Both the position numbers and the translations under genes were made by a program. From Owenia fusiformis (lineage: Eukaryota > Annelida > Polychaeta > Sabellida > Oweniidae), in contig CAIIXF020000005.1 of NCBI GenBank assembly GCA_903813345.2, positions 1,490,001-1,554,000 on the forward strand: a stretch of 64,000 bases of DNA, read 5' to 3'. Of the stretch, positions 7,101 through 22,100 are shown one piece after another. The notes under the pieces are model-generated. The model had not been told where the DNA came from. It saw only the letters and a program-made list of their open reading frames with translations, and made no database searches. Numbering within the stretch: the first letter of the stretch is position 1; every line of letters starts with the position of its first letter.

Positions 7101-10100
7101 ATTTAAAGTATTGTTCTATCCATTGGATTCTTAATTTATTCTATAACAAGAATAATGATTTTAACTATTTATTTAGACTTCGGCTTTTATCTCATCAATG
7201 TAAATGAAATTAAACATAACCTAAAATACAATGTAATACCAATCAATGTATAATTTTCTTTTCTGTTTATTTCAGTTTGTCGTTGAGTATTATGAGTCGA
7301 TTGTTGAACACCCATGATGCACCTGTCCTCCTTGTAAGCTTAATCGATAATCCCCCATGGACCAGACGCAAACAAGGTGAGAAATACACTTTGTGTTTTG
7401 TGTTTATTTGTGTAATTCCCATCACAATACCCAAATACATATATTCAACGTATGACATGAATGATATATTACTGGTGTCAAGGTATCATGATATTGTCAT
7501 ACCTCAATGTTTTGTTTTCAAGAAGAACAACATCCATAATCGGGATATACTACTTATCTTTTATGGCTTTTAGTCTCCTTAGAAACATGCTTAATGTAAT
7601 ATTTGAATCACACATTTCATATTTTGATCACTAGATTTGGCATTCAGGCATAAGTGTCATCTGTATTACATTAATTTCATGAAACAAGTAAAAAACTAAT
7701 TTCCTGTTAAACCCATCCTGTCCCTAAATAGAAAATTTCAATTCCTTCCCATATATTACTGTTTATATATATTTTGTATTTGTTTTTCTGTATTTGATGC
7801 TTAAAGTGTTTTAGTTCTTTATGGTTTGGGCTTATTTAATACAGGTTCACCATATTCTAATGTCAAAATCTTCATATCTTGATCTGATAGTGACTCAACA
7901 GTAAAATTCCTAGTGTTGTTTTATCTCAAACTGCTCAATTGCAAAATGTGTACAGAAACAATTTATTTTGAATAAGCATTTTTAAGAGAACTTACCTCAG
8001 TGTGTTTAATGAGGTGATTTCTACCATATTTACACCACAGTATGTTTTATTACTCCTAACAATGATCAGGCATCTTCAAACGTTTTATTAAATCTTGATA
8101 CAAACATGAAATCTAGACTGATTACATATAAATAAAAATCACCCTTGAAAGTTGTATTGTTGAGACATTATACTGGAGGGATTGTCTCAAAATGTCTGTC
8201 AAATTATATCATTCTTTTTGTGGTAAAGGATTGGGTAAAGCTTAATAAAATCATTTGAATTTGTAATAAAGAACGTCATGTAAATAAATGCTAAAACCAT
8301 TCTTTTTATGAAATGATGAGTGAGACAACCTATAGCTACAAAATTACATTATTCTCTAATTTCTATATTTTGACCCTGCCCCTGAGGACACGTGTGTTTA
8401 ATCTGGCTCTTGTTCAACTATATGTACGCACAGCACAAGTGCCATAATGATATAATAGGGTGAAGGCCAATTGTATCAAACACACAGATGGACAAGACAT
8501 AATTTAAATGTTCAACTAGAAAATGAATCACCAGTATCACAAACATTGACCTATCATACCAAGAAACAATGTCTAACATCCCCATTCACCCATCATTCAG
8601 TTTAAACACCTTTATCAATTTGATTCATGCAGAGATAAGATAAAAAAAAATATTGCAATGGTTTGATTTTTTGGCTTCATCACCTACTGTTATAAAGGTC
8701 ATTCAAGGTGTTTAACTGAGGAGAAGTATAATATCATTCCAATAAGTCCTGCCATCTTTTGATAGATCAGAAAAATGATGATATATTGTCAAAATTGATG
8801 ATGTCATTGGTTGTAGGCCCAGGGTTGTAGGTAGAAATTTGGTATGACCATGCAAAAACAAGATGAACTTATTATTAATTTTGAAAAGAACAACCTATGA
8901 CATTATCAATCTAGCCAATATATCAAAGTTTCTCAGATTATCAAAAAGTGGTAGGATTTATCTATAAATAAATATCTATTATAGCCCTACATGTAATCCT
9001 GATCTCAATATGAATGCCTTCAATAGACTTTTATCCTGGAAAGTGTTCAATATTTCTTTTGTTTGCAATCGTCAAAAGTTGGAAAGTGTGGTTTAAAGTA
9101 GGTCAGATATCTGGGCTCACAAGAAAATCATGTTGAGGGATTGTGCTGTTAGATAGTACAATGTTAATTTATAACTATATAAAGCAATAACATAGCAAAG
9201 ACATTGTGATATTTAAATTATATAATTTAATATTTTCAGATGGTGAGATAGAAAAGTACATAGATAACAAATGGGTGACAGTAACATATGAAGACAGTCT
9301 AAAACTAACAAAGACAGAAGGCCAGGTCAGTATACTGTATGTTATAAGATGAGATTGGCATATGTATGTGTTGATAAAGAATATGAAATTGGATGTGAAG
9401 TATTATATTGTGTATTATTCACTTAAACAACTATGTTTATTATTTAATGAAGAACTAAGAAAAGAATTGATATGCAAATGTGTATTAAAAATTATGTAAT
9501 TAACACAGGGGCGTTGCCAATTTTCAGTCAGAGAGGGGGGTGCGATCGCCAAAATAATTTCGGTTTTCAGTCAGTGGGGTGTGATTGTGGCATAAAAAAT
9601 AAAGATTTATCTTGAATTTTACAAAAATTGATGCAACTTCCTTCAAAATTGATTCAGATTGGCAGGTGTTCACATTTCAAGGTTTCCCAATATTTTGAGC
9701 CAATGGTACTGAGACTGAGAAAAAGTGTTCAAATTAGAGAGATGTTCTGATATACATAACACTACTGTACAGGTTTCATTGTACATAGAATTACTGAGTA
9801 TTACATACTGCTGTTTGTACATTATAGGTTTGGATTGCCTTGTTCCACTTGTTGATGGAAGAAGAGTGTCAAAGGAATACAAACTGAATTATTGCACACT
9901 GCTGTTTGTACATTATAGGTTTGGATTGCTCTGTTCCACTTGTTGATGGAAGAAGAGTGTCAAAGGAAATACAAACTGAATTATTACATACTGCTGTTTG
10001 TACATTATAGGTTTGGATTGCCCTGTTTCACTTGTTGATGGAAGAAGAGTGTCAAAGGAAATACAAACTGAATTATTACACATTGCTGTTTGTACATTAT

Positions 10101-19100: not shown

Positions 19101-22100
19101 CTGTTTGTACATTATAGGTTTGGATTGCCCTGTTCCACTTGTTGATGGAAGAAGAGTGTCAAAGGAAATACAAACTGAATTATTACACACTGCTGTTTGT
19201 ACATTATAGGTTTGGATTGCTCTGTTCCACTTGTTGATGGAAGAAGAGTGTCAAAGGAAATACAAACTGAATTATTACACACTGCTGTTTATACATTATA
19301 GGTTTGGATTGCTCTGTTCCACTTGTTGATGGAAGAAGAGTGCCAAAGGAAATACGAACTGACATCATTCAGGAAAAATATCATCATGAAAGTAAGTTTC
19401 AAATATTTTTTAAAAGAATACAGTAGAATTTTCGTATTTCACATCTACACCTTGAGTGTGAGTCCTTTGAACTAGCTTAACCCAGGGTAGTAACAGAATG
19501 TGATTACCATAAATAAACCTATTTTTATCACATTTTTTGTGTGCTATTTGTCATTGTCTTATATTGATGGGCATACACGCGTGTCCTTGCGCGCATATAT
19601 GCATCTGTGCGGGTGGGTGCCAAATAAATCTTGTCAGACTGGTGCAGACTAGCGCCAAAACCTGATGACATAGTTGAATAACGTACTTGATGGCCATTTT
19701 ACACTTTTCAATAAAAAATGCAATATTTGTAAGTGTCTGTCTTGTTGTTTAGCCTACATGTTTTATGTATTATCAGGAATAAAATGTTATGTATTATTGC
19801 AAGTTGTAACATACAGTACCTTGTGTTGTAGCTGAGAAGTCACCTGACTGAGGTGCTAGTAGATCAGATGCCAGTGTTAGGTGGTATGCTGAGATACCTT
19901 GAACATCTCTCTATGATGGACCCACCACCCGTCAAGAAAAATCTTGTCTTAGAACAGGTAATGGAATTCATTCAGGCATTATGCAACCACATGCTGCAAG
20001 TTGAAATAACCTTGCACCTACTTGAAATCTACATTGCACCCACATAAAAGTTACCTTGCACCAAGTAGTTGGGTTGCAATCATCTGAGAATTGCAAAACT
20101 GCAAAATCATGAAACTTTGGGATATATTTCTAACATTGACACATTTGTTTAGGAAAGCTTGTTCACCAGAGCTGATTATATCAGAATTTAATATTTAAAT
20201 GTTTAGAAGATTGTTCTTGTTGCAGGTACCACAAATAAGGGATTCTATTTTGAAAGAATGTGAAGGAAAATGGAAATCCATTACAAAGCAACAATGTAAA
20301 ACCTTCTTTAACCCTCCACAATCAGTCGTAAGGGAACAAGCCAAAAGGTAAGCTTATGTTATGCAAACTTAAAAGATACTCATCATAATTGTATTGGACA
20401 TTTGAGACTTTGTGATTAGATGCTTATAGACCTTCTTAAGTTTAATTATGAAACTGACTTATTCTGCGAGGTCATAGAACAAGGAGGCGAATGTCTACCA
20501 TGGAGTTAATCACTAGCCCCTCAATGCAGACATTTTTTCAATAATTACTACCAACATAAATTACATTGATCAATGTACTCTTTTATCTCAATTTGTTTTA
20601 AATTACCAACAAATTACAACATACAATCATTCTTTTCTTTATAATACATATAAATCATAGACTTGGTGAAAATTGAAATGGTGCATTCAAAAGATGGTGC
20701 TGATGACAAATGTGATTGGATTTTGCATCATTAATGTATTATATGAATTTTATCAAATGAGTATATGGCAGTATTACTGGGATAGCATTGATATTTTTGT
20801 TACCAGTATAATATTTCAATATTAATTTTAATACCAGTATAATATTTCAATATTATTTTTTTTATACCAGTATAATATTTCAATATTAATTTTTGAAACC
20901 AGTATAATATCTCAATATAAATTTTAATACCAGTATAATATTTCAATATTAATGGTTATTCAATGCATATAGGTATGAAATTATTGGTGACTGGTTGATA
21001 TCACATTCAAATGTTATATAATATGAGATATCAGTGAATGCCAAAAAAATCATTGGATAAATCAGATATCTTGTGAATTTTTATTGTATCTTTCAAAATC
21101 ATATCACATACATACCATATGTGTTCTTTATACCTTTATACCAATAGTTCTGGAAGAAGGATGTTTCCTATATGATCCAGATCTTTTTGTGTTGTTGTGT
21201 CTTACTAATTAATTGGAGGGGGGGGGGGGTAGTTGTTATAATGCTCACTGGACATGGGTTTTGTGAATCAGCTATGGTATTGGTACATCTGGCTTGCTAG
21301 ATGTCTGTCTATTTCATTCTTGAACTGGTTGATACTTTCCACATCAATGGCAGACTGGGGTAAACTGTTCCAGGTATTCACAATTCTGTTGCCAAGGACA
21401 TTTTTTCTCACATCAAGTCTGCTGTATCTATGATTTAGTTTTTCTGTGTTTCCTCTTGTCCTGGTATTATCTGATTTCTGGGCGATGTCACTGATTTGTA
21501 TTCGGTCGTAACCTTTTAGAACCTTGAAGATTTGGATAAGATCACCCCTTATTCTTCTATACAGTAAAGAGGGGAGTTTTAGTTGTCTCATTCTTTCTTC
21601 ATAGCTTAAATCTTTCAATGGTGGTACTAGTTTTGTTGCTCTTCTTTGTACTTTTTCAATTTTGTCAATATCCATACAATGTATAGGTGTGGGGGTTCCA
21701 GACACTGTTTCCATATTCAAGGTGAGGCCAGACCATGGATTTATATAGGAGTGGTAAGGTGGTTCTATCAAGATGGGAGAAAGTTCTTTTTATTGTCCCA
21801 AGAATACTGTTGGCTTTGGATACTTGTTTATCGACATGTTGGTGGAACTTGAGTTTGCAGTCAATATTGATTCCAAGGTCCTTTTCCAATGTTGTTTGCT
21901 CCAAAGTTTTGTTGTTCATGGTGTAGTTTTGTTTCTCATTGTTGGTACCTAGATGCATCACCTTACATTTATCTGTATTGAAAGGGAGTTGCCATTCTTT
22001 TGACCAGTTTGTTAAACTGTGCAGATCTGTTTGTAACTGTTCTTTATCTTCTTGGTCTTTAACTTTTCCATACAGTTTGGCGTCATCTGCATACATAAGA

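Follow-up and report, generated by a model that had tools for sequence, protein, structure and literature searches.

A 64,000-nucleotide stretch of Owenia fusiformis DNA (contig CAIIXF020000005.1, positions 1,490,001 to 1,554,000 of the forward strand; hereafter the window, with positions counted from its first nucleotide) contains an intact ZMYND10 gene in which the acceptor and 5' part of exon 9 are repeated 104 times. Only the last copy continues into the rest of the exon and yields the full-length protein. The repeat unit spans an exon/intron boundary, as in the tandem repeats known as mirages. The array is probably a minisatellite of this type, produced as a by-product of slippage or unequal exchange and tolerated through a pairing of the splice sites that lie nearest to each other across the exon.

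The ZMYND10 gene and its exon 9 array

The ZMYND10 gene occupies positions 4165–22966 on the forward strand and is composed of 13 coding exons. The exons, joined by script, form one open reading frame (ORF) of 450 residues, and AG/GT borders are present at all 12 introns. The product contains a zf-MYND domain (Pfam, E = 3.5e-10) and matches PDB entries 2d8q and 2dan, each of which carries the name zinc finger MYND domain containing protein 10. The C-terminal position of the MYND finger and the full-length collinearity of the exons identify the product as ZMYND10. The exon 9 stretch also aligns with human ZMYND10. The gene identity, exon number and coordinates given in the initial annotation are thereby confirmed, including the donor gtaagt at 19392. 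ZMYND10 is described as a co-chaperone in axonemal dynein assembly, whose variants cause primary ciliary dyskinesia (PMC6044906).

The array extends from 9799 to 19362 on the forward strand. Tandem Repeats Finder (TRF) reports 104.0 copies with a period of 92 and 95% matches. Cutting the array unit by unit at the acceptor gives 104 units, of which 100 are 92 bp, three are 91 bp and one is 93 bp long. Each copy consists of about 31 nt of the 3' end of the intron with its acceptor, followed by 61 nt of exon 9 (GTTTGG...CTGA). The acceptor AG is intact in all 104 units, in full agreement with the original description of the repeat. The last copy alone, with its acceptor before 19302, is continuous with the remainder of exon 9 and the donor at 19392. 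The productive exon 9 (19302–19391) is 90 nt long with phase 0/0. Upstream, exon 8 (9240–9325) carries a donor, gtcagt at 9326, that faces all 104 acceptors. Intron 8 measures 9976 bp, and its non-array portion amounts to only about 0.5 kb. The left flank of the array, at 9760–9800, resembles a degenerate extra copy (ACTGTACAGGTTTCATTG) as judged by eye.

The units are similar to each other, with a mean pairwise identity of 95.4%, and fall into 62 distinct haplotypes. The longest exact repeat within the 9.5-kb array is 403 bp. From −30 to +10 around the junction, 19 of the 103 decoy acceptors are identical to the productive one, and five remain identical from −30 to +40. For these decoys, site sequence cannot account for the choice of acceptor, which must therefore be set by position.

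Coding outcome of the 104 acceptors

Exons 1–8 were joined to each acceptor through 19391 and then to exons 10–13. A full ORF results from one acceptor, the last; the other 103 lead to early termination, as had been proposed. In 96 of the 103 decoy joins, the early stop falls 117 nt past the acceptor. Since an intact protein results from the last acceptor alone and the gene is otherwise undamaged, this acceptor would be used at least in part if the gene works.

The initial annotation attributed the selection of the last acceptor to exon definition by the single donor at 19392. Exon definition is still the best available mechanism, but the donor alone is insufficient. With the same donor, decoys 103, 102 and 101 would produce exons of 182, 274 and 366 nt, respectively, and a length of 182 or 274 nt is nothing unusual for an exon. 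The explanation additionally requires a preference for the two sites that lie closest to each other across the exon.

Potential donors were scored with a weight matrix. The real ZMYND10 donors score 2.2–7.0 on this matrix, the best GT within the array scores 3.1 and the next scores −0.2. As only one GT in the array is donor-like, the decoys would be without a near partner.

Other ways of handling the decoys were considered and rejected. Splicing of small exons through donors inside the array finds no basis, as no GT other than the one at the copy 20 junction scores near the real donors. RNA structure does not appear to mask the decoys. A 276-nt segment of three units shows no folding advantage over shuffled sequences (z = +1.31), and 187 of 200 shuffles are at least as stable. 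Selection preserving the decoy acceptors might be read from the invariant AG, yet there are few mutations per site, so the invariance is little informative.

Formation of the array

The array contains exact recurrences of blocks that are two to four units long; one three-unit block, for example, is present at copies 42, 50 and 53. Compared with shuffled orders, unit similarity is elevated at lag 3 (P = 0.001), lag 1 (P = 0.012) and lag 8 (P = 0.043), with lag 2 at P = 0.054. No gradient of divergence was found along the array, in which each block of 13 units contains 2.77–3.38 differences. The recurrence of multi-unit blocks and the even divergence fit unequal exchange or slippage of blocks, although the agent itself is deduced from the pattern. 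The block repeats, seen here in one haplotype, would also fit an instability in length between haplotypes or tissues such as characterizes mirages.

Other duplicated exon edges in the window

Comparison of the window with itself identifies 13 independent loci of local direct duplication, five of which span an edge of a coding exon. In addition to the exon 9 array, two of the five lie in ZMYND10, one in a sarcoglycan gene and one in a desaturase gene, all on the forward strand. These four edges had been overlooked in the initial annotation.

The donor region of ZMYND10 exon 4 (5897–5944) has a second copy at 6032–6079 that is 48 bp long, 95.8% identical and devoid of the GT. The donor of exon 12 lies in an array of a 64-bp unit at 22326–22782, defined by TRF, in which about six to seven degenerate copies contain the last 21 nt of the exon, the donor and intron sequence. 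The productive donor is the first (22347). It is the only one of eight candidates from a GT(A/G)(A/G) scan that gives a full ORF; the other seven lead to a stop at residue 422, and two of them, 22485 and 22677, regain the frame after that stop. A reverse-transcriptase fragment (RVT_1, E = 4.1e-14) lies on the reverse strand of intron 11 at 21668–22216, and its matched part stops about 26 nt short of the acceptor of exon 12 (22221).

An exon end in a sarcoglycan alpha/epsilon gene is repeated at 45345–46579. TRF reports 33.5 copies of a 37-bp unit composed of the exon tail and a CAA|GTAAGT-type donor. The gene was identified by matches to Sarcoglycan_2 and Sarcoglycan_2_C in Pfam on hand-joined exons. 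Among 31 aligned units, GT is kept in 30 and GTAAGT in 27. Within the part of the gene that was joined, the first donor (45385) is productive and in frame with the next exon, and the seven later donors listed, of 28, run into a stop two codons beyond the junction. Thus, both donor arrays have their productive site on the exon side, mirroring the acceptor array of exon 9.

The desaturase array, at 27264–27861, repeats the last 15 codons and the stop of the gene into its 3' flank in 11 copies of a 53-bp unit (TRF). The desaturase gene matches FA_desaturase in Pfam with an E value of 6.9e-13.

Further repeats and mobile elements are present in the window. A 99-bp unit is repeated nine times at 37817–38712 on the reverse strand, in frame within a 388-residue ORF, and encodes a 33-residue repeat; two Pfam families are listed for it, neither with a single stretch that passes. 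A 62-bp unit is repeated 14 times at 52106–52985, with a longest exact internal repeat of 381 bp and no known exon at that place. The ORFs at 518–2410 on the reverse strand encode a THAP domain and a DDE_Tnp_4 transposase and probably belong to one transposon. Scans of the window for Rfam families and tRNAs gave no hits.

Possible concentration of duplications at exon edges

The association between duplications and exon edges was evaluated by placing 13 duplication seeds at random against the 38 annotated edges of three genes. The 38 edges include the sarcoglycan exon end at 46986, which lacks a GT and is uncertain. With margins of 0–3 nt, 5 of the 13 loci are at an edge, compared with 0.60–0.65 expected (P ~2e-4). 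When the exon 9 array is left aside, the figures are 4 of 12 and 0.53–0.57 (P ~1.4e-3). Placement restricted to the inside of the three genes gives 5 of 7 loci against 0.84–0.96 expected (P 4–7e-4), or 4 of 6 when the exon 9 array is omitted (P 1–2e-3). When only splice sites are considered, 4 of 13 loci qualify (P = 0.0016), or 3 of 12 once exon 9 is set aside (P = 0.014). For all edges with a margin of 8 nt, the counts fall to 3 of 13 loci (P = 0.010) and, with exon 9 excluded, 2 of 12 (P = 0.067). In the most conservative control, in which the edges were slid along the full uncollapsed arrays, the observed five compare with a mean of 2.6, and the corresponding fraction is 0.054. The concentration of duplications at exon edges in the window is therefore suggestive: the stricter controls weaken it, three genes are annotated, and the arrays had already been seen when the test was devised.

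A broader version of this observation is conceivable, if rather doubtful. Tandem duplication could be concentrated at coding-exon edges throughout the genome, either because junctions are mutational hot spots or because a selected exon re-seeds its array, and the near-identical decoys would be ignored under a strict rule of pairing the nearest sites across the exon. An excess that held genome-wide would be a sign of a mutational or selective process, as yet unexplained, by which introns grow from exon edges.

Probable choice of the exon-side acceptor

The favored explanation is that of a tolerated by-product. A tandem duplication would have spanned the ZMYND10 exon 9 acceptor by chance. Slippage or unequal exchange, which the observed block copies suggest, may then have amplified and reshuffled it, until 9.5 kb of decoy acceptors occupied what had been an intron of about 500 bp. 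If splice sites that are closest across the exon pair with each other, the exon-side acceptor would be chosen, with some leakage to the last decoys. The same geometry would apply to the mirror-image donor arrays of ZMYND10 exon 12 and sarcoglycan, where the exon-side donor is predicted to prevail. The array itself would be without function.

The rule invoked here has a precedent. Carranza, Shenasa and Hertel report that exon definition prefers the sites closest across the exon (PMC9225289). In their minigenes with two identical strong donors, the exon-side donor is described as being used exclusively under exon definition. For 5' splice sites, the strict exon-definition class is reported to clearly reverse the choice; for 3' splice sites, exon definition significantly lowers the preference for the upstream site, and one hybrid class acts more like exon definition (PMC9225289).

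The recurrence of the same arrangement at four further exon edges within 64 kb argues for a tolerated by-product. Several points weigh against it. Mirages have so far been described in cephalochordates, and the GC content of the window, 33–37%, is below the approximately 41% of Branchiostoma. Decoys 102 and 103 yield exons of normal size, and any first-come rule would favor the decoys, which are transcribed earlier. The effect of exon definition is reported to be weaker on acceptors than on donors (PMC9225289), which makes the ZMYND10 array harder to account for than the sarcoglycan array, the easy case.

The variants in the exon part of the units also count against a mere by-product. Synonymous changes account for 11 of 20 variant events, compared with 6.5 expected (P = 0.005), in a count that treats the three-base M10/E11 change as one event and leaves out indels as well as the final two positions of the unit. 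Such an excess would not arise from drift in dead copies by itself. The common variants taken alone are synonymous in 6 of 8 cases against 4.4 expected, which is not significant (P = 0.15). Elsewhere, synonymous variants number 4 of 17 in the sarcoglycan array, and the desaturase array has 2 among 4. Re-seeding of the array from the selected exon is thus only a lead, because the common variants do not reach significance and the sarcoglycan array has no synonymous excess.

Alternative explanations

Exon 9 may be mostly skipped, with the decoys titrating splicing factors or lengthening the intron, which would lead to direct joining of exons 8 and 10 and make exon 9 alternative. The length and phase of the exon permit this outcome, as its omission leaves the frame open and yields a 420-residue ORF, 30 residues shorter. 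The initial annotation did not take such skipping into account. We regard predominant skipping as unlikely. The productive copy contains neither a frameshift nor a stop, the sole change private to it within the shared 60 nt of exon 9 is synonymous, and the alignment with human ZMYND10 includes the exon 9 stretch. It is somewhat less probable still that the array is an assembly artefact, or that this locus is a silent copy with an intact one elsewhere. The gene is intact, with AG/GT at all 12 introns, and the window holds further exon-edge arrays. False re-expansion of the array by the assembler, in particular, is unlikely because the longest exact repeat is 403 bp and the 104 units comprise 62 haplotypes.

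A regulatory array along the lines of the initial annotation, in which decoy use would give unproductive, decaying message and copy number would set the full-length fraction, is compatible with the early stops of all 103 decoys. That exon edges in three genes of the window carry comparable duplications points instead to a general mutational process, and a regulatory role seems improbable. The least probable alternative, to which we give very little credence, is recursive removal, in which AG|GT junctions would double as acceptors and donors and allow piecewise excision of the array, as at the dual-specific sites of polyubiquitin. An AG|GT junction is present in 104 of 104 copies, and human UBC is reported to use dual-specific AGGT arrays (PMC10809524). 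However, the junction reads TAGGTTTGG in 101 of the 104 copies and scores −1.7, below every real ZMYND10 donor. These 101 junctions are too weak as donors for an array of dual-specific sites. Copy 20 (11575) has AG|GTATGG, the sole decoy junction with a score like that of a real donor (3.1), and is a possible ratchet or dual site.

Comparison with known systems

Competition between splice sites is examined with pairs of sites in PMC9225289. In ZMYND10, 104 near-identical acceptors, some of them identical over 70 nt, are set against a single upstream donor and a single downstream donor; the mirror case, with about 30 near-identical sarcoglycan donors, lies in the same window. The near identity of the sites in both arrays would allow position effects to be measured almost or entirely free of sequence differences between the sites. 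The value of the locus lies in this natural competition and in the company of arrays in one window, and less in a new phenomenon. The locus, proposed as a natural test of exon definition, would be a good natural test of splice-site choice, with the qualification that structures of this kind have been described before.

Tandem repeats across exon/intron boundaries were named mirages in lancelet Adh3 and later found in globin genes at either boundary (PMC3087553). The globin mirages are described as having units of 10–160 bp and haplotypes of three and six copies, and reverse-transcription PCR suggests regular splicing (PMC3087553). Mirages in PGBD5 and TnC were added subsequently, with up to seven copies in PGBD5 (PMC3902484). 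Those in the Adh, globin and TnC genes reportedly leave the mRNA undisturbed (PMC3087553, PMC3902484). The lancelet mirages in Adh3, the globin genes BflGb6 and BflGb9, TnC and PGBD5 resemble the exon 9 array in being minisatellite-type repeats over 5' or 3' exon boundaries, many of which include splice signals. Their splicing is reported as regular for Adh3 and the globins and predicted to be so for PGBD5 (PMC3087553, PMC3902484). They contain two to seven units, a figure that excludes Adh3 and TnC, in contrast to 104 and about 33 here. Unlike the lancelet mirages described, the repeats in this window affect three genes within 64 kb. No boundary-spanning repeats beyond the lancelet cases were confirmed in a literature search that covered few subscription journals.

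Intron gain by tandem genomic duplication is said to be another case in which duplication bears on splicing, in that instance with the birth of a new intron. In ZMYND10, an existing intron grew and no new one is seen. Polyubiquitin UBC resembles the array in having AGGT at every boundary of its tandem units (PMC10809524). The UBC units are coding, in frame and described as having sites used both ways, whereas the exon 9 units are out of frame and their junctions are poor donors. For acceptor and donor arrays alike, the cross-exon proximity rule predicts use of the exon-side site; as reported, it rests on competing pairs of sites, with minigenes for donors only, compared with 104 acceptors in ZMYND10 (PMC9225289). 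The exon 9 array thus belongs to a kind of structure already described as a mirage, and what is new is its size and the company of other exon-edge arrays.

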